From the NCBI GenBank assembly GCA_040388375.1, contig JAZKBU010000004.1, positions 62,001 to 126,000 on the forward strand: DNA of 64,000 bases, read 5' to 3'. Source of the DNA: Bacteroidota bacterium. GTDB lineage: Bacteria; Bacteroidota; Bacteroidia; UKL13-3. Below are positions 25,166 through 62,200 of this stretch, in pieces (within the stretch, counting starts at the first letter, position 1; every line of letters begins with the position of its first letter). The translations under genes and the position numbers were made by a program. The notes under the pieces were generated by a model that worked only from the letters and a program-made list of their open reading frames with translations, did no database searches and was not told the origin of the DNA.

Positions 25166-25945
25166 TTACGACTCTACTTTACGTAGAAAAGTTTTCCATT
25201 GTTTTCCTTTTTCGTAAAAAGGCTTACATGTTTTACATTCTGTATTCATGGCTTCATATAATTGAATGGTATCGCCTTTCGCTTCCCAAATCAGTAATTT
25301 CGATTCTTTGGTTGTAATATTACTTATTTCCATCAAATCATTTTCACTCATAGAAGCCTTATCGTTATTGATAAACGTTTGGTAACTTTGATAACCATCA
25401 ATACCATTTATTTCGTTCATGGCAGTAAACTTTACCCCATAATTATTAGCTAAATCGGTAAACTCCCCTTCAAAAAGGTGTTTATTAATAGCATATTTTA
25501 AAGCCGGTAAATCACTATTTACTTTTACTATGGGGTTATTAATGGCCCTTACATAAGTAAAAGTTTTTTTAGCCGCTGAGTCATAGTAAAATAATTTATC
25601 GTCCTTGCTTACAAATAAATTACTGTGAGGCATGTGTGATAAACCTTCAACCGCTACTTCCGTTAAAGAAATACTATCAAATCCTGATTTCCAAAACTCT
25701 ACATCACCATTTACCAGTATAATACTATCCGCATTTTTATCAATAATAATTTCACTACATAAAAACTGATCAAAACCATGAATGTTTTTTGTTTTATATA
25801 CATGGTTTAATACTGACTCTAATAACCAATGTCCGTAAATTTGAGGTGATTCAACTGTTTTTGCTTGTTCTTTGGGTGCTTCATTTCCACACGAAACAAA
25901 AATGGTAACAACAAAAGCAATAATATAATGGGTAATTTTTTTCAT
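25166..25945 (-). CDS. Hypothetical lipoprotein
   Basis: 259 residues starting with a lipoprotein signal (MKKITHYIIAFVVTIFVSC with Cys at about 19), so probably anchored to a periplasmic or outer-membrane face. I do not recognise the family. The mature chain has repeated strand-like hydrophobic segments (HWLLESVLNHVYK, IIIDKNADSIILVNGDVEF) and resembles a lipocalin-like or copper-resistance-like sandwich in pattern only. A CKTC pair is near the C-terminus. It precedes the NUDIX gene with a 3-base gap and lies 58 bases downstream of panC on the same strand. Confidence 0.75.
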   Translation of the reverse strand: MKKITHYIIAFVVTIFVSCGNEAPKEQAKTVESPQIYGHWLLESVLNHVYKTKNIHGFDQFLCSEIIIDKNADSIILVNGDVEFWKSGFDSISLTEVAVEGLSHMPHSNLFVSKDDKLFYYDSAAKKTFTYVRAINNPIVKVNSDLPALKYAINKHLFEGEFTDLANNYGVKFTAMNEINGIDGYQSYQTFINNDKASMSENDLMEISNITTKESKLLIWEAKGDTIQLYEAMNTECKTCKPFYEKGKQWKTFLRKVES

Positions 25946-26003: not shown

Positions 26004-26855
26004 TTAAGGCTTAATTACCCAATTATCAATTAACCTTACTTCTCCACAAAACACAGCAGCCAATATAACTGCCTTTAAATGGGCTGAACTATTACCACTT
26101 AATAACTCAAGTGTTTCACTATTATAAATGTTAAAATACTCTACTTGAAGGCTTTTATTGGCACCAATAATAATAAGTGCATTTTGCACCAATTGTTCAA
26201 TGGTATGCAAACCCCAGTTTTCCTGTATATAAAATAGGGCCTTTGAAATAGCCGTTGCTTCTTCCCGTTGTATTTTATTCAAGCGTACATTTCTACTACT
26301 CATAGCTAGGCCGTCTTCATGCCTAACAGTTGGCTCAATACATAACTGAATGGTTGAATAATGCCTTTTAATAAGCTCACCCACAACCATTACCTGCTGG
26401 TAATCCTTTTGTCCGAAAAATGTTTTATCAGGTTTAACAATATCAAACAACTTAGCCACAATGGTTTTTACCCCATCAAAATGGCCGGGTCTTTTCTCCC
26501 CTTCCAAAACGGTAGTAATTAGGCCAAAATCTTCTGTGTTTTTTAGCAAGCCATCAGGATACATTTCATCTACAGGAGGCATAAAAAGAACATGGCAACC
26601 AGCCTCCAGCAATAGTTTAATATCCGCATCTGCCGTTTTCGGATATTTTTCTAAATCAGTAATATTGTTAAATTGAGTAGGGTTTACAAAAATGCTACAA
26701 ATACATATATCTGTTTCTTGTACACTTTTATTAATTAATGATATATGTCCGGCATGCAAAGCACCCATTGTAGGTACAAATCCTATACTTAATCCCTTCG
26801 CTTTTTGCTCATTTACATAGTTTTGTACCGCCTGAACAGTTTTAAATACAATCAC
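26004..26855 (-). CDS. panC: Pantothenate synthetase
   Basis: Condenses pantoate with beta-alanine using ATP, the last step of vitamin B5 synthesis. The HIGH-type motif is PTMGALHAGHISLI, with IFVNPTQF, GxKRPGHFDGVKTIV, FFGQKDYQQ and SSRNVRL all present. A GTG at 26855 gives MIVFKTVQAV and 283 residues, the usual length. An ATG at 26918 would add 21 non-conserved residues and run into the divergent promoter, so GTG is preferred, though not proven. panB and panD are not in this window. It is divergent from the GlgA-like half protein. Confidence 0.93.
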   Translation of the reverse strand: MIVFKTVQAVQNYVNEQKAKGLSIGFVPTMGALHAGHISLINKSVQETDICICSIFVNPTQFNNITDLEKYPKTADADIKLLLEAGCHVLFMPPVDEMYPDGLLKNTEDFGLITTVLEGEKRPGHFDGVKTIVAKLFDIVKPDKTFFGQKDYQQVMVVGELIKRHYSTIQLCIEPTVRHEDGLAMSSRNVRLNKIQREEATAISKALFYIQENWGLHTIEQLVQNALIIIGANKSLQVEYFNIYNSETLELLSGNSSAHLKAVILAAVFCGEVRLIDNWVIKP

Positions 26856-26934
26856 TTTAGTTTGATTTACAGCCGTTTGTTTATTTTTACGAACTTTTTT
26901 GTGGTCAATATTAAACAATATATTAACATTATCG

Positions 26935-26942
26935 TAAATTTG
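26935..26942 (+). promoter_or_regulatory. -7 promoter element TAAATTTG
   Basis: Exact TAnnTTTG match 30 bases upstream of the GlgA-like half gene, in the panC divergent region. No TTG at consensus spacing. Confidence 0.45.
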
Positions 26943-26972
26943 CCTACTTTTTTAAAAAGAAAGTTATTTAGT

Positions 26973-27788
26973 ATGTCTAAGAAAAAAGTTCTTTTTATCT
27001 CGTCAGAAATGACCCCTTACTTGCAAGTAACCAATGTTGGTGAATTAGCAAGAAGATTGCCACAAGCAATTCAAGAAAAAAACAATGAAATCCGCGTGCT
27101 TATGCCTCGTTTTGGCTGCATAAACGAAAGACGCAACAAATTACACGAAGTTGTTCGTTTATCAGGTATCAATATAACTATTGACGATAACGATAATCCA
27201 CTTACCATTAAAGTTGCTTCGTTACAAGAAGCTAAAATGCAAGTTTATTTCTTAGACAACGAAGACTATTTCCACCGTAAATTTGTTTATACCAACGATA
27301 AAAACGTATTTTTTGATGACAATGACGAGCGTACCATTTTTTTCTGTAAAGGTGCACTTGAAACAGTAAAAAAATTAGGCTGGCAGCCCGACATTATTCA
27401 CTGCCAAGGCTGGATGACCAGTTTAATTCCGCTTTACCTAAAAACTATTTACAAAGACGAACCTGTATTTAGAAATGCTAAAGTTGTTTATTCTGTTTTC
27501 GAAAATCAATTTGAAGAAAATTTAGGTAAAGATTTTGCCCGTAAAGCCGGATTAAACGAAATTGATACCAAACAAGTTGCCTCATTAGTTAACTCTGATA
27601 GCACTGCTTTATATATAACAGGTATTACTCATGCTGATGCAGTAGTAACCGCCAGTGACGAAATAAATGCTGAAGTAGCTAAATTTATTAAAAAACAAAA
27701 AGGTAAATTAATGTTAAATCATGTTGAAGGTGCTTATGGCGAAGCTTATGACCAACTATATGAGAATTTACTTGAAAGGCAAAATTAA
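26973..27788 (+). CDS. GlgA-like N-terminal half protein (starch synthase catalytic domain, degenerate)
   Basis: 271-residue protein covering only the N-terminal Rossmann half of GT5 glycogen synthase; the family norm is about 480 residues with two halves. KKVLFISSEMTPYLQ aligns with the GlgA start. The ADP-glucose motif KxGGLxD is degraded to VTNVGELARRLP, and the C-terminal GT-B half is missing. HCQGWMTSLIPLYLK retains the shape of GlgA HxHDW. A self-standing catalyst is therefore unlikely. The start is ATG 26973; longer in-frame starts are not conserved. The same half protein divergent from panC recurs in Bacteroidota as far as I know. It is the first gene of a run with DUF4270, aroF and glmS. 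Confidence 0.85.
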   Translation: MSKKKVLFISSEMTPYLQVTNVGELARRLPQAIQEKNNEIRVLMPRFGCINERRNKLHEVVRLSGINITIDDNDNPLTIKVASLQEAKMQVYFLDNEDYFHRKFVYTNDKNVFFDDNDERTIFFCKGALETVKKLGWQPDIIHCQGWMTSLIPLYLKTIYKDEPVFRNAKVVYSVFENQFEENLGKDFARKAGLNEIDTKQVASLVNSDSTALYITGITHADAVVTASDEINAEVAKFIKKQKGKLMLNHVEGAYGEAYDQLYENLLERQN

Positions 27789-29124
27789 ACTAAACAGCGC
27801 TATCAAAAATCTTATTTTCATTGGGTGCTTTATTATTATAGCCACCTTCTCTGCTTGTAAAAAAGATACTAATACTTTAGGAGTTGATTTTATTAACCCC
27901 GACAGTACTTTTGGTACCTCTTATAAAAGTTTTTTGCTAACTGGGTATACCACTAAAATGGATTCCTTACCAACATATAACCAATCGTTATATATGTTAG
28001 GAAGTATCAACGATCCTGTTTTTGGTATATCAAAAGCCACCATTCTAACATCTTATTCCATTCCAAATAATGCTGCGTCATTTAGTTTTGGAAGCGTAGG
28101 CTTGCAAATTGATTCAGTAGTATTACAATTAAGAATTGGAAATGATACTACCTATGCTGGCGATATCAATAGCCCCCATACTATTAAAGTATACGAGTTA
28201 AGTTCGCGTTTAATAGGTGATTCAATCTACTATTCAAACAGGCCTTATGCTGCTTCAACAATAGTAGTAGGTGAGTTCAATGATAGATTCAGACCAACAG
28301 ACAGTATTTATAGTACATACGTAAATACGACTGCCGTTATTCCGCCTTGTATAAGAATAAAACTGTCTGACGATTTTAAAAATAAATTACAAAATGCAGG
28401 TACTTTAAACTCAAGTACGTTTTACGATAATTTTAAAGGGTTTGCGTTGGTTGATGAAAGTAATTTCGCCACAAATCAGGGAAGTATAGCTTATATAAAC
28501 TTAAACTCTATTTATACCAATATGGTGGTTTATTATAAAAACGATACGACCAATTTAAGAGCTGAGTTCCCTATTTACACAAGTAATCCGAAATACAATC
28601 ATTACCAAACCAACAGCACAGGCTTTAACCAACCTATGTTTAACGGAACACCTAAAGATACCGGCTATCTGCAAGCAATGGCAGGAACAAAAATACGTGT
28701 GTTTATACCACCGAGTATTATAGACTCGTTGGCCTCAACATTGGGTACACAATTAGCTATACAAAAAGCAGAGCTTGTTATAGATGCTTATAACGGTCTT
28801 GACAACAATACTTTTAAGCTGCCTAATCAGCTTACATTACTGGGTACCGACTCTGCAGGAAATAGCATTTTAATACAAGATATGTTTTCAGAAGGCAGTT
28901 TATATCTTGGAGGAAATATTTACAATAACCAATATAGATTCAATATCGCCCGGGAGTTAAATAAAATTATCTCAACACGTAAAAAAGGAGGCAACTCACA
29001 CTTTGGATTCAACATTATAGTTCCCAACAGTACCAGTGGTTCCGTTTTTCAAACATCAGCTAGAAGAGCCGTTTTAAACACTAAAAATTTAAAACTTAAC
29101 GTTAACTATACTGTTGTAAAATAA
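27760..29124 (+). CDS. DUF4270 lipoprotein
   Basis: 454-residue protein with a lipoprotein signal whose lipobox is FSAC (Cys near residue 33 from ATG 27760). The mature protein starts KKDTNTLGVDFINPDS, the DUF4270 hallmark. It then has long beta-rich segments and several sites where TTNYxD-like turns are replaced by YNGLDN. The family is restricted to Bacteroidota and is presumed to sit on the outer membrane; its biochemical role is unknown. The start overlaps the GlgA-like gene by 29 bases, suggesting translational coupling. A TTG at 27772 is an alternative start. Confidence 0.85.
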   Translation: MRIYLKGKIKLNSAIKNLIFIGCFIIIATFSACKKDTNTLGVDFINPDSTFGTSYKSFLLTGYTTKMDSLPTYNQSLYMLGSINDPVFGISKATILTSYSIPNNAASFSFGSVGLQIDSVVLQLRIGNDTTYAGDINSPHTIKVYELSSRLIGDSIYYSNRPYAASTIVVGEFNDRFRPTDSIYSTYVNTTAVIPPCIRIKLSDDFKNKLQNAGTLNSSTFYDNFKGFALVDESNFATNQGSIAYINLNSIYTNMVVYYKNDTTNLRAEFPIYTSNPKYNHYQTNSTGFNQPMFNGTPKDTGYLQAMAGTKIRVFIPPSIIDSLASTLGTQLAIQKAELVIDAYNGLDNNTFKLPNQLTLLGTDSAGNSILIQDMFSEGSLYLGGNIYNNQYRFNIARELNKIISTRKKGGNSHFGFNIIVPNSTSGSVFQTSARRAVLNTKNLKLNVNYTVVK

Positions 29125-29143: not shown

Positions 29144-30181
29144 GTGATTATTCAACTTACTAAACAAAGCAGCACTGCTCAGATTGATAGCCTACAAAAA
29201 CATTTAAACAGGCTGGGATTAGAGTACTTTTTTCAAGCGGCCAAAAACCAGTTTATTGTTCCCCAAGCAAACCAAACCGAATTATTTAACGATTTTTCTT
29301 TTATTGAAAATATAATCAATATTTCTACACCCTACCAGTTATCATCTAATCAATACAAAAAGCAAACACGCTTTTTAGTAAATGGTATTGAAATTGGGGG
29401 CGACAATTTAAATTTGATTGCCGGGCCTTGCTCAGTAGAAAGTGAAGAACAGATTTTTGATGTTGCCCAATTTTTAAACAAAAACAAAATAAAGTTTATA
29501 CGTGGCGGAGCTTTTAAGCCTCGTACCTCGCCTTATAGTTTCAGAGGTTTAGGAAACGAGGGCTTAAAACATATAAGGGCAGCAGCCGACAAATATGATT
29601 TAAGAGTAGTTACTGAATTAATGGATTTGAGTAACTTGGAGCAAGTATATAACCATACAGATATTATTCAGGTAGGGGCAAGAAATATGAGTAACTTTTC
29701 ATTGCTTGCCGAATTGGGGAAAATAAATAAACCCGTAATGCTTAAACGTGGTATGAGTGCCAAAGCTACTGAGTGGCTTTTAGCAGCCGATTACTTACTT
29801 TGTGGAGGTAATGAAAACATTATTTTATGCGAACGAGGTATCAGAAGTTTTGATATACAAAGCAGGAATGTTTTTGACCTTGGCGTTATTCCGTTAATGC
29901 AATCCCTTTCACACCTGCCAGTTTTTGCCGACCCTAGTCATGGTGTAGGTAAAGCAGCATTTGTAAATAAAATGGGCTTAGCAGCCATTGCAGCCGGTGC
30001 CAATGGTTTAATGATAGAAATACACCCCAATCCTGAAAAAGCATTAAGTGATGGAGAACAAGCATTAAACTTTACAGAGTTTGAATCATTTTTAACGGCA
30101 GCTAAACCGCTATTAAATGCTATTGATAAAGCTGCTGACTTTAGTGAAACAAACAATTTTTTGAAATTAGAAAGTTTATAA
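29144..30181 (+). CDS. aroF: 3-deoxy-7-phosphoheptulonate synthase (DAHP synthase type I-beta)
   Basis: First enzyme of the shikimate pathway: phosphoenolpyruvate plus erythrose-4-phosphate to DAHP. The 345 residues start at GTG 29144. Residues 1-70 form the ferredoxin/ACT-like regulatory extension (MIIQLTKQSSTAQIDSLQKH) typical of the I-beta class. The TIM-barrel core shows LIAGPCSVES, RGGAFKPRTSPYSFRG, IQVGARNM, KRGM and FADPSHGVG (metal-binding His), and the C-terminal EIHPNPEKALSDGEQ. It lies 19 bases after DUF4270 and 16 before glmS. The I-beta extension usually confers feedback control by aromatic products. Confidence 0.95.
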   Translation: MIIQLTKQSSTAQIDSLQKHLNRLGLEYFFQAAKNQFIVPQANQTELFNDFSFIENIINISTPYQLSSNQYKKQTRFLVNGIEIGGDNLNLIAGPCSVESEEQIFDVAQFLNKNKIKFIRGGAFKPRTSPYSFRGLGNEGLKHIRAAADKYDLRVVTELMDLSNLEQVYNHTDIIQVGARNMSNFSLLAELGKINKPVMLKRGMSAKATEWLLAADYLLCGGNENIILCERGIRSFDIQSRNVFDLGVIPLMQSLSHLPVFADPSHGVGKAAFVNKMGLAAIAAGANGLMIEIHPNPEKALSDGEQALNFTEFESFLTAAKPLLNAIDKAADFSETNNFLKLESL

Positions 30182-30197
30182 TATATTCGTTATAATT

Positions 30198-32039
30198 ATG
30201 TGTGGAATAGTTGCTTACATTGGCCATAGAGAGGCTTGTCCTATTATATTAAAAGGGCTAAAAAGATTAGAATACCGCGGTTACGATAGTGCTGGTGTTG
30301 CATTACTAGACGATAGCAAAGAATTTAAAGTTTATAAAAAAACAGGTAAGGTTGCCGATTTAGAAAACTCCATTGGCGATCAAAATACCAGTGCACATAC
30401 AGGTATGGGCCACACTCGTTGGGCAACCCATGGTGTTCCTAACGATATAAACGCACATCCACATTTAAGTGGAAATGGCGAGTTTGCCATTATTCACAAT
30501 GGTATTATTGAAAACTATGCTTCGTTAAAAGAAATGCTCGAAAAACGTGGGCATCAATTTAAATCAGAAACGGATACCGAAGTTTTAATTCACCTGATAG
30601 AAGAGGTATATAAAAACAATGAGGTAAGTTTTGAAGAAGCTGTTCGTATGAGTTTAACCCAAGTAATTGGTGCTTATGCAATAGTTATTTTAAGTAAAAA
30701 AGATCCTAACTATTTAATCGGAGCCCGTAAAGGAAGTCCGATGGTTTTAGGAATTGGCGAAGGCGAACATTTTATAGCAAGTGATGCAACTCCTATTGTA
30801 GAATACACCCGCAATGTAGTGTATTTAAACGATGGTGAAATTGCCATAATCAAAGGGACGGACTTAACCATCAAAACCATTGACAACACTATAAAAACAC
30901 CTTATATACACGAGTTAGAAATTAACTTGGAAAGTATTGAAAAAGGCGGCTACGAACATTTTATGATGAAAGAAATTTTTGAGCAACCGCGCTCTATTCT
31001 TGATTCATACCGTGGCCGAATCCACTTGAACGATGGTATTATTACTATGGCCGGAATTGATAAATTTGAAGATAAGTTTAAAAACTTAAAACGCATTATT
31101 ATCATAGGCTGCGGTACTTCATGGCATGCCGGTTTAGTTGGCGAATATTTATTTGAAGATTTTGCCCGTATACCGGTTGAAGTAGAATATGCTTCAGAAT
31201 TCAGGTATAGAAATCCCATTATTGACGAAAATGATTTTGTTATAGCCATTTCACAAAGTGGTGAAACAGCCGATACGTTAGCAGCACTAGAGTTGGCAAA
31301 AAGTAAAGGTGCTACCATATTTGGTGTATGTAATGTAGTAGGCTCATCTATTCCTCGTTTAACAGATGCCGGAGCATATACTCATGCAGGACCTGAAATT
31401 GGTGTAGCTTCAACCAAAGCATTTACAGCACAAGTAACAGCATTAACTTTAATGGCTTTATCTATTGCACAAAAAAGAGGTACTATTACTACCCAGCGTT
31501 TGCGTGAAATGATTGCCGAAATTGAAACTGTTCCTGCAAAAATTGAAAAGGTTTTAAAAACCAACGATTTTATAAAAGAGCTGGCTAAAGAATTTAAAGA
31601 TTCAAGAAACTTCTTATACCTGGGCCGTGGTTATGGATTCCCGGTTGCTTTAGAGGGCGCATTGAAACTAAAAGAAATTTCATACATACATGCTGAAGGA
31701 TACCCTGCTGCAGAAATGAAGCATGGCCCAATTGCATTAATTGATGAGGAAATGCCGGTAGTAGTAATTGCTACCCAAAATACCAATTACGAAAAAGTAA
31801 TAAGCAATATACAGGAAGTAAAAGCCCGTAAAGGTAAAGTAATAGCCATTGCAACGGAAGGCGATAAACATGTAGCTGACATGGCCGACCATGTTATTTA
31901 TATTCCGGCTTGCGAAGAGTCTATGTTGCCTTTAATAGCTACTATTCCATTACAATTACTTAGCTACCATATTGCTGTTTTAAGAGAGTGTAATGTTGAT
32001 CAACCAAGAAACTTAGCAAAATCTGTAACAGTAGAATAA
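30198..32039 (+). CDS. glmS: Glutamine--fructose-6-phosphate aminotransferase (isomerizing)
   Basis: Makes glucosamine-6-phosphate, the entry to peptidoglycan and LPS amino sugars. 613 residues. The N-terminal Ntn glutaminase starts MCGIVAYIGH with Cys2 as nucleophile (Met removed) and has GHTRWATHG. Two SIS sugar-isomerase domains follow, with IGCGTSWHAG, SQSGETADT, ASTKAFTAQV and RGYGFPVALEGALKLKE. The C-terminus NLAKSVTVE is canonical. Last gene before a very strong terminator. No glmS ribozyme was seen in the short upstream gap, as expected outside Firmicutes. Confidence 0.98.
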   Translation: MCGIVAYIGHREACPIILKGLKRLEYRGYDSAGVALLDDSKEFKVYKKTGKVADLENSIGDQNTSAHTGMGHTRWATHGVPNDINAHPHLSGNGEFAIIHNGIIENYASLKEMLEKRGHQFKSETDTEVLIHLIEEVYKNNEVSFEEAVRMSLTQVIGAYAIVILSKKDPNYLIGARKGSPMVLGIGEGEHFIASDATPIVEYTRNVVYLNDGEIAIIKGTDLTIKTIDNTIKTPYIHELEINLESIEKGGYEHFMMKEIFEQPRSILDSYRGRIHLNDGIITMAGIDKFEDKFKNLKRIIIIGCGTSWHAGLVGEYLFEDFARIPVEVEYASEFRYRNPIIDENDFVIAISQSGETADTLAALELAKSKGATIFGVCNVVGSSIPRLTDAGAYTHAGPEIGVASTKAFTAQVTALTLMALSIAQKRGTITTQRLREMIAEIETVPAKIEKVLKTNDFIKELAKEFKDSRNFLYLGRGYGFPVALEGALKLKEISYIHAEGYPAAEMKHGPIALIDEEMPVVVIATQNTNYEKVISNIQEVKARKGKVIAIATEGDKHVADMADHVIYIPACEESMLPLIATIPLQLLSYHIAVLRECNVDQPRNLAKSVTVE

Positions 32040-59288: not shown

Positions 59289-62200
59289 ATGAAAAAATTA
59301 TTTTTAATTAACTTAATCTTAACAAGTTTAACTCTCTCTGCTCAAATAGGCTCAACTTCATTCAACACCAAAGTAGATTTTGCCACTGGAGGCAACGATG
59401 TTATTTGGAATACTACAGCTGATTTTGACAATGACGGAAAATCAGATATTGCAACAACAAGATCCGCTTCATCAGTTGGAGTTTATAGAAATACCAGCAC
59501 AAATGGATTCATTAACAGTTCTTCTCTTTCTAGTATTCAAAGTTATACAACAGCTAGTGGAACTAATTATATTACATCCGGAGACATTGATGGAGATAGT
59601 AAAATAGATATTATAACAAGCAATTTTACGTCAAATACAATTTCTATTTTACGTAACACAAGTTCTGGTCCGGGCTCCATTAGCTTTGCAGCTAAGTCTG
59701 ATACGTCTACCAGTCTTAATCCAAGTTATTTAACTATGGCCGATATAGATGGAGATGGAAAACCAGAAATTATAATCAGTAACTTTGGTTCTAATACCTT
59801 TTCCGTTTACAAAAACAATAGTACACCAGGCACAATATCTTTAGGAGCAAGAAGTGATTTTGCTGTTAGTATCTCCGGCTCTTCACCTCAAATGCTTAGT
59901 ATTGGTGATATGAATGGCGATTCTAAACTGGATGTTGCTGTAATATATTATAATGGTTATATCGGGTTATTTAAAAATACATCAACATTGGGCTCAATTA
60001 GTTTTGCTGCCTCACAAGTATATTTAGGTTCTAATTTAAATGCCGGCATTGCATTGGCAGATCTTGATGCTGATAATAAATTAGATGTGGTTATTTCAAG
60101 CTATAATACTGCGCAGGTTCATATTTATAAAAACACTAGTACGCTTTCAACAATTAGTGTAGCTACACCAATTTCGCTTACTTGTGGCAATCAGCCTCAC
60201 GGAATAGTCGTATTAGATATTGACTCGGATAACAAACCAGAAATTATGGTTGCTAATAGAGGCAGCAATTCTATTTCTATATTCAAAAATCAAGCAACAT
60301 CGGGAATTATTAATTTGGCATCTTTTGCAAGTAAAGTTGATTTTACAACTAATACTACCCCCATTTGTTTATCAGTAGTGGATATTGATGGGGACTTAAA
60401 AAAGGAACTAATAACAAGTAATAACGGAACAAGTAATATTTCTGTTTTAAGAAATGTTATATTAAATAATGAGCCCACTTTGGCCGCAAGTGCTATCAAT
60501 TTAACTACCATCTCTAATGGGTGGTCATTAAATATATCATTTACTAAAGGAAATGGAGCACGAAGAATAATATTGGCACGCAGTGGAAGTCCGGTAAACT
60601 CTAATCCTATAGATTCACATAGCTATACGGCCAACTCTATTTTTGGTAGTGGCTCGCAAATAGGAACAGGGAATTATGTGGTTTATAACGATACTGGAAA
60701 CACAGTATCTGTTTCAGGATTAACGGTGGGTACTAATTATTATTTTACAGTTTTTGAATCAAATGGAATAGGTGGATTTACCAATTATTTAACCTCGTCA
60801 ATCACAAGCGGAAATAAACTAATAGGCTTAGCTTATTACTCAAAAATTTCAGGTAATTTAAATACACTTTCAACATGGGGGGCGAATACAGATGGAACAG
60901 GCACATCTCCATTGAATTTTACAGACAGTAATGTTGCTTATTATGTTGTTAATAATAGCTCACCTTCCATAAACGCTAATTGGTCAATTGGTGGAACTAA
61001 CAGTTTTATTGTATTTGGAGATGGAACAAATACTTTTAATTTAAGCATACCCTCATCAAACACAATTACTGCAGATAGTATAGTAGTAAAAAACAATATA
61101 ACTTTTTCTATCCAGGGAACTCTTGCTGTCAATAAATCAAATTGGGAAAATGGAAGCACTGCTCTTTACTTTGGGGCTTCAGGGCAAGGAGTTGCACCCG
61201 GGAATTACAGTGCCCTACAGATTATTAATGGAAGTAAAAACATGTCCAATCATGTTACTGTGAAAAACACCTTAACAATGACTACAAGTATTAACACGAA
61301 TAGCTATATACTTAGTCTGGGTACTGATGTTGTTAATACAGGGACTTTAAGCAGAACAGCCGGAACAATTATTGGTAAATTCAGAAGATGGTTTGCTGCA
61401 AGTATTAACAGTGGTGCAAGTGGTTTACTTCCAATAGGTACAAGTGCTTATTATAGGCCTGTAAGTATAGAATACACCTCTGCACCAAGTGTAGGAGGAA
61501 ATTTATTAGCAGAATTTATACCTAACAATCCCGGTATATCAGGATTACCTTTATTTGAACTACCTGTATTTATTTCTACAGCTAGTACAGACGGTTACTG
61601 GAGGATAACTAATACCGGTATTACTGGAGGACTATTAACAAGTACTGTTACCGCCAGTGGTTTTAATGGTATAAACGATTATACCCAATTGAAATTAATT
61701 GCAAGAACCGGAACAAACTGGACTAATCCGGGTACATCACAAACAAATTCTGGTAGTAATTCAGCTCCTATTCTTTCCAGAACAGGTTTAAGTAATAACA
61801 CTTGGGAGTTTGGGGTTGGTGGAGATTTATCTACGAATCCACTACCAGTAAAATTAATAAATTTCGCTGCTAATAACACAGGTACATCTGTACAATTAAA
61901 CTGGGAAACCTCAGCTGAAATCAATAACTCTCATTTTGAGATTGAAAGAAAAACAAACAACGGATGGAAAACAATTGGAGAAATCAAAGGTAATGGAACA
62001 TCAACTACTGTTAATAAATACCTTTTTATTGATAACCAATTGAATTTCTTAGACAATCAAATAATTTTTTACCGACTTAAGCAAATTGATTACAATGGCT
62101 CTTTTGAGTATTCTAACATATTATCAATAAGTTTAAACACCGAAAAAACTTTTATTACTGTTTATCCCGTTCCATTGCAAAATAAACTCTCTGTTAATAT

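Follow-up and report, generated by a model that had tools for sequence, protein, structure and literature searches.

Genes at the locus

The window analysed here is a stretch of 64,000 nucleotides from a Bacteroidota bacterium of the UKL13-3 lineage (GenBank assembly GCA_040388375.1, contig JAZKBU010000004.1, forward-strand positions 62,001 to 126,000), and positions below are counted from its first letter. At 26,973-27,788 on the forward strand, it carries a gene that starts with ATG and encodes a protein of 271 residues derived from glycosyltransferase family 5 (GT5), the family of bacterial glycogen synthases, with a single domain left (PF08323 over residues 5-238, E 7e-60). This protein, hereafter the half protein, is an enzyme-derived pseudoenzyme with counterparts across the phylum. 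Its tie to the assembly of outer-membrane proteins, unproven but testable, is suggested by the gene that follows it, bamH.

The divergent gene upstream is panC (26,004-26,918, reverse strand; Pantoate_ligase in Pfam, E 2e-91), which, by comparison with PanC of relatives, probably starts at the GTG at 26,855 rather than at the TTG at 26,918. Downstream, bamH (27,760-29,124, forward strand) starts with the ATG at 27,760, so that the two reading frames overlap by 29 bases (27,760-27,788), and a further in-frame ATG lies upstream at 27,721. It encodes a DUF4270 lipoprotein of 454 residues (PF14092, E 6e-36) and is followed on the same strand by an aroF-like gene for 3-deoxy-D-arabino-heptulosonate 7-phosphate (DAHP) synthase (29,144-30,181; DAHP_synth_1, E 2e-73) and by glmS (30,198-32,039), which was recognized as an open reading frame in a conserved position and named from its sequence. 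Open reading frames and Pfam matches thus agree with the initial annotation, which had listed the divergent panC, the 271-residue GT5 N-terminal protein, the 29-base overlap with a DUF4270 lipoprotein gene, aroF and glmS.

Comparisons of profiles and of a predicted structure identify the DUF4270 lipoprotein as BamH, a subunit of the outer-membrane β-barrel assembly machinery (BAM). The protein scores 65 bits against the NCBI model of Flavobacterium johnsoniae BamH, under its cut-off of 420, and a single-sequence search of PDB sequences gave no match. A profile built from 25 of its relatives matches 9n2d_C (named Bam H, E 2.5e-74), 9his_G and 9hjm_G. The same chains come first when its model (pLDDT 83.5) is compared with solved structures, with Z scores of 28.4 over 389 residues for 9n2d_C (F. 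johnsoniae), 25.3 for 9hjm_G and 22.1 for 9his_G, the next chain reaching 10.4. Family and fold are therefore shared with the solved BamH chains, although identity to them is only about 18-20% and the score stays under the F. johnsoniae-specific cut-off. It is the sole DUF4270 protein of its genome, in which a BamG homologue is encoded on a separate contig (C15).

The N-terminus of this BamH resembles a lipoprotein signal peptide, with a lipobox cysteine (Cys33; 27,856-27,858, forward strand) that is invariant in 36 relatives. The six residues after it, KKDTNT, include one acidic residue, and the surface-export rule, as given in the available sections of PMC12578637, asks for at least two and was derived for Bacteroides proteins. 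Work published in 2025 assigned BamH and BamG to an extracellular canopy on the BAM of Bacteroidota, and in F. johnsoniae both are essential (PMC12611786, PMC12578637, each in the sections available). In Bacteroides thetaiotaomicron, bamH2 and bamG2 (BT1786-BT1785) are also adjacent, as in many of the loci described below; these are paralogues, and no GT5 gene is mentioned beside them in the same sections of PMC12578637. This pair was the sole mention of DUF4270 found in the parts of the literature available.

Fold and residues of the half protein

The structure prediction proposed in the initial annotation yields one confident and complete N-terminal domain (AlphaFold2, pLDDT 90.9, pTM 0.92). 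The model superimposes on Arabidopsis starch synthase IV (Z 28.5, 253 residues aligned) and on Escherichia coli GlgA (PDB 2qzs; Z 24.5, 243 residues). The latter alignment spans GlgA residues 1 to 477, the last of the protein, and takes in only domain 1 and the last helix of the GT-B fold. The helix at residues 257-268 (27,741-27,776, forward strand) is the counterpart of the GT-B C-terminal helix, and its Tyr263, aligned with E. coli Tyr473, is retained in 155 of 160 halves and in all of 17 full-length relatives. These two sets, from which a separately derived half (L080), a degenerate full-length protein (L094) and identical sequences were excluded, are used for the residue counts out of 160 and 17 below.

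Since the alignment runs from the first to the last residue of GlgA and the closing helix is kept, the second domain was removed internally. Thus, the gene is not a torn one; it encodes a complete single domain that arose by excision, with the final helix packing on domain 1. The statement in the initial annotation that the C-terminal half is missing holds for the second GT-B domain, as a Pfam scan of the 271 residues found no C-terminal glycosyltransferase domain, but not for the last helix, which both fold and sequence alignments recover. A comparable arrangement is found in a fragment of sucrose-phosphate synthase (6ldq; residues 27-220 and 406-426), which, according to its title, lacks the C-terminal domain but retains the last helix; judging by the same title, however, that fragment was engineered, whereas the half is a natural gene.

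Homology with GT5 synthases such as GlgA extends throughout the N-terminal domain and the C-terminal helix. Between the GT5 family models NF010698 and TIGR02095, the former is the best NCBIfam match (E 5e-57), although the score of 193.6 bits is far under the curated cut-off of 754. Together with the second domain, the half lacks the donor motif and His161: QVTNVGE (residues 18-24; 27,024-27,044, forward strand, by alignment with E. coli GlgA) stands at the site of KTGGLAD, and a Phe is aligned with the histidine. In none of the 160 halves is K-x-G-G found, and the His161 position is still His in 10, mainly in one lineage outside the window's class (classes and families are here kinship codes, not taxonomic names). 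By contrast, K15, G17, G18, L19, D21 and H161 (E. coli numbering) are each present in all 17 full-length relatives. We take these to represent the K-x-G-G-L donor motif and the catalytic site of GT5 synthases. The degraded donor motif and the absence of catalytic motifs, both pointed out in the initial annotation, are thus borne out.

In addition to these losses, other residues have become fixed. S64 and G65, within the half-specific RLSG at residues 62-65 (27,156-27,167, forward strand), each occur in 157 of the 160 halves; A82 and S83, within KVAS at residues 80-83 (27,210-27,221, forward strand), occur in 159 and 160, respectively. None of the four is present in any of the 17 full-length relatives. 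Furthermore, 44 residues are invariant among 16 diverse halves. As the halves form one clade, shared descent accounts for part of this near-invariance. Nevertheless, overall identity among halves is only about 40-60%, and such conservation speaks for constraint on the new residues.

By its substitution pattern, the half protein is under stronger constraint than its neighbours PanC and BamH. Within the genus (eight genomes), it shares 90-93% identity with the protein of the window, compared with 59-61% for BamH and 62-67% for PanC, and its nonsynonymous divergence (dN) is 0.05-0.07, compared with about 0.3 for both neighbours; synonymous divergence (dS) exceeds 1 in these comparisons, and dN/dS ratios are consequently rough. 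Median identities across the family (six loci) are 81% for the half, 40% for BamH and 48% for PanC, and across the class (18 loci) 49%, 29% and 43%.

The half protein is single-copy in its genome. The other PF08323 match there is a distinct GT-B protein of 426 residues (L022; G000:C1:98160-101786), with an EPFGLSAVEA motif and encoded beside a GH57-like gene. In this genome, glucan is probably formed by that protein.

Gene order and origin across Bacteroidota

A GT5 homologue, half or full-length, was found in 294 of 296 Bacteroidota genomes, both misses belonging to one family (f30), and in 29 of 30 near relatives, the genome without it being 65% complete. Gene order was compared in 59 long loci, picked by hand from the listed matches, usually with one or a few for each family, and covering only families among those matches. 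In the window's class (22 loci), bamH is the next gene in 22, panC is divergent in 20 and glmS lies downstream in 18. In the other classes (37 loci), panC is found in none. There, a half is encoded in 19 loci, all with bamH and then bamG downstream (at L080, after a gmhB-like gene). The remaining 18 loci encode a full-length GT5 protein, followed in 17 by a gene for a gmhB-like phosphatase; bamH comes next in 16 (17 by a more sensitive search), and then bamG in nine.

Similar figures were obtained from shorter or separately sampled loci. Among class loci with short flanks (L002-L020 and L023-L051), bamH is next in 44 of 48. Among 80 loci from named records, it follows in 67 of the 77 with room for it (68 with the sensitive search). 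In this sample, panC is divergent in 62 of 78, and 39 of 62 have glmS; where bamH does not follow, the next gene is glmS, metK, ispF or an unrelated one. The half gene lies on the same strand as bamH, and overlap is frequent, yet absent in many loci. The hidden Markov model used for BamH was iterated three times and its drift was checked by hhalign, in which the profiles of class BamH and of deep-branch candidates matched with a probability of 99.7% (E 1e-25), compared with 1.6% for the BamG control. BamG was checked with the NCBI curated model, which placed three of four tested proteins over the cut-off and gave more matches of this kind beside GT5 genes.

Thus, only the window's class shows the link to panC, and the link to bamH is phylum-wide, spanning some 60 family codes and surviving loss of the C-terminal domain. 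The initial annotation had presented the protein as conserved beside panC. Its high conservation was confirmed, but panC is a neighbour in one class only, and the survey of gene order that had been suggested there gives bamH as the lasting neighbour, contrary to one refuting condition named there, that the neighbours would not be conserved. For the other, binding and transfer of ADP-glucose, the half no longer has the residues. As a functional partner of the half, panC was rejected on the same counts.

A gene for a secreted-looking protein of about 440 residues stands directly after bamG in 18 of the 37 loci of other classes (for instance, L074:9332-10669). The one such protein scanned matched no Pfam family, and the label 'TPR' given to it has no database support. 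It is possible that this is a further BAM-linked gene.

A tree of 60 N-terminal domain sequences, built by a quick maximum-likelihood method, joins 41 halves in one clade with a support of 100, while the L080 half stands apart, among full-length sequences. Because well-supported branches separate the two, at least two changes between full-length and half forms are forced, and the tree indicates that the C-terminal domain was excised at least twice. The nearest full-length relatives, found in deeper lineages, occupy the same place, upstream of gmhB-bamH(-bamG) (L084-L093, L097, L098, L102 and L108-L110), and differ in having two domains and, in all 17 compared, intact catalytic motifs; the full set is found in the full-length proteins beside bamH, except for the degenerate ones of f30. 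The simplest history suggested by these sequences is that a working glycogen synthase was encoded upstream of (gmhB-)bamH(-bamG) in the ancestor of the phylum, and that its C-terminal domain was excised at least two times while the link to bamH persisted. For the window's class and its sister lineages, both the excision of this nucleotide-sugar-binding domain and the loss of the catalytic signature go back to their common ancestor.

Two lineages show variations of this history. L080 and a second genome of family f51 (G284 and G201) have an independent half in a gmhB-bamH-bamG setting, which lacks the S-G and A-S residues, and each genome also encodes a separate full-length GT5 protein. In f30 (L094, L201, L202, L205, L208, L211, L212 and L213), a full-length protein of 488-491 residues has degraded K-x-G-G-L and R/K donor motifs. 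It is the only PF08323 gene of the genomes that carry one; 2 of the 15 f30 genomes have no PF08323 match, and none of the 15 has a BamG over the cut-off. By its motifs, the f30 protein looks like a second case of pseudoenzyme-like decay, here without domain loss.

Possible roles of the half protein

We tentatively favour, with a probability of roughly 0.45, the reading that the half is a co-opted, non-catalytic cytoplasmic protein that binds or regulates, is made together with BamH and is tied to the supply of BAM. According to this reading, the half would be co-produced with BamH and would act in the cytoplasm, not as an enzyme. Its conserved R-L-S-G, K-V-A-S and Y-F-x-D-N residues might recognise another protein or a small ligand, and the half could match the supply of the canopy subunits of BAM, BamH and BamG, to how metabolism of sugars or envelope precursors stands. 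A non-enzymatic role, perhaps in envelope biogenesis, had been put forward in the initial annotation; the loss of motifs and domain and the conserved bamH neighbour favour it, while the envelope role itself is an inference. The favoured reading also draws on the strong constraint, the near-universal presence of the gene, the two origins of halves, their retention in genomes without a branching enzyme above the cut-off and the lack of a partner domain in the genome. A bolder version seems rather unlikely. In it, a glycogen synthase became, throughout the Bacteroidota, a cytoplasmic regulator of outer-membrane protein assembly: a pseudoenzyme that would bind a ligand, perhaps a cobamide or a sugar nucleotide, and determine the amount of BamH/BamG canopy.

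Several observations weigh against the favoured reading. At nine loci of the window's class (L032, L033, L040, L043, L125, L138, L153, L182 and L186), bamH is gone and the half still lies beside panC or glmS. At seven others (L074-L077 and L104-L106), glgB (7/7) and malQ (6/7) precede the half on the same strand, which suits a role in α-glucan metabolism. In B. thetaiotaomicron, bamH can be deleted, and the half is not reported among proteins that co-purify with BAM, as would be expected of a cytoplasmic protein (both in the available sections of PMC12611786 and PMC12578637).

There is limited information about this gene in the literature. No discussion of its function or of its link to bamH was found in the publications searched, searches on essentiality returned nothing, and the words 'operon' and 'glycogen' were not found in the available main text of PMC12611786. 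From their numbering (and, for BT_4307, its annotation), fjoh_0824 and BT_4307 would be half genes. The former is numbered beside F. johnsoniae bamH (fjoh_0823), and its native promoter was used in depletion constructs, as far as the available sections tell, which counts for the favoured reading. BT_4307 is a putative glycogen synthase numbered beside B. thetaiotaomicron bamH. A vitamin B12 photo-probe caught 16 proteins in both of two screens, BT_4307 being one of them, and it was not pursued further there (PMC8941943, available sections). Elsewhere, it has been taken to indicate that glycogen is stored (PMC10797578, likewise). Neither the use of this promoter nor this capture proves a role for the half.

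The main rival, which we regard as a real possibility, is that the conserved function of the half lies in the cytoplasm and has nothing to do with the outer membrane (it might, for instance, bind a nucleotide-like cofactor), and that adjacency to bamH is an inherited ancient gene order. The loci of several lineages where the half stayed after bamH had moved off agree with this, and so does the B12 probe capture of BT_4307 in both screens, although abundant proteins such as trigger factor were also captured (PMC8941943, same sections). Moreover, the half is much more conserved than BamH, and co-evolution of the two is consequently not required. By contrast, mere inheritance of gene order accounts less well for a bamH link kept over so many families and through the loss of a domain, or for the addition of bamG in other classes.

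It is improbable that the half is a non-catalytic α-glucan-binding subunit that serves glycogen metabolism beside another synthase. Its descent from GlgA, the clade with glgB and malQ upstream and the presence in the genome of another GT-B protein next to a GH57-like gene would all suit such a subunit. Nevertheless, a branching enzyme scoring above the curated cut-off is missing from 38 of 80 half-bearing genomes, the window's included. Some of the 38 show weaker matches, which might come from divergent enzymes, while for 14 of the 80 nothing matched; the strongest constraint was seen in a genus without a branching enzyme. On these counts, a glycogen-linked role was rejected as a general explanation. 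With its second domain and catalytic residues lost, no partner domain in the genome and a branching enzyme above the cut-off often missing, the half is not expected to carry out glycogen synthesis. Around the seven halves preceded by glgB, the setting resembles a glycogen operon, and three of these loci also have a comA-like gene upstream, so that an α-glucan ligand is conceivable.

That the half is an active glycosyltransferase, able to use ADP-glucose by itself, or part of a split one completed by a C-terminal domain from another gene, is very improbable. Public records annotate it in this sense (PMC10797578 and PMC8941943, in the sections available), and the fold of its N-terminal domain is complete, but the donor domain is missing, K-x-G-G is absent from every half compared and no orphan C-terminal domain was found in the genome. 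In a PF00534 search of the window's own genome, all 20 matches to the GT1 domain lie within frames of at least 333 residues, and a search with the C-terminal domain of a full-length relative gave weak matches only, to full-size two-domain glycosyltransferases; a split GT-B enzyme was rejected on these results. The chance that the frame is a mere translated leader that couples translation to bamH is negligible: the 29-base overlap and the loss of domain and motif would fit it, but low dN relative to both neighbours, the invariant and newly fixed residues and the many loci without overlap do not, and constraint at the protein level largely refutes it.

These findings bear on how these genes are named and on BAM itself. 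The gene, present in nearly every sampled Bacteroidota genome, is annotated as glycogen synthase, yet in the window's class its product has neither the domain nor the residues for the reaction. Its lasting link with bamH, and elsewhere also with bamG, hints that the BAM of Bacteroidota, a system described only recently, has a cytoplasmic side; a control layer of this type, if true, is not described in the BAM literature consulted. Independently of this, the family offers a clear case in which repeated domain excision turns an enzyme into a non-enzyme while gene order is unchanged.

Two further features lie near the locus. A candidate promoter box, TAAATTTG (26,935-26,942, forward strand), precedes the half gene; it is a weak pattern match to TAnnTTTG, which we take to be the consensus of the Bacteroidota -7 box. 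In addition, a lipoprotein-like protein of 259 residues with no Pfam match is encoded at 25,166-25,945 on the reverse strand, between a NUDIX gene and panC.

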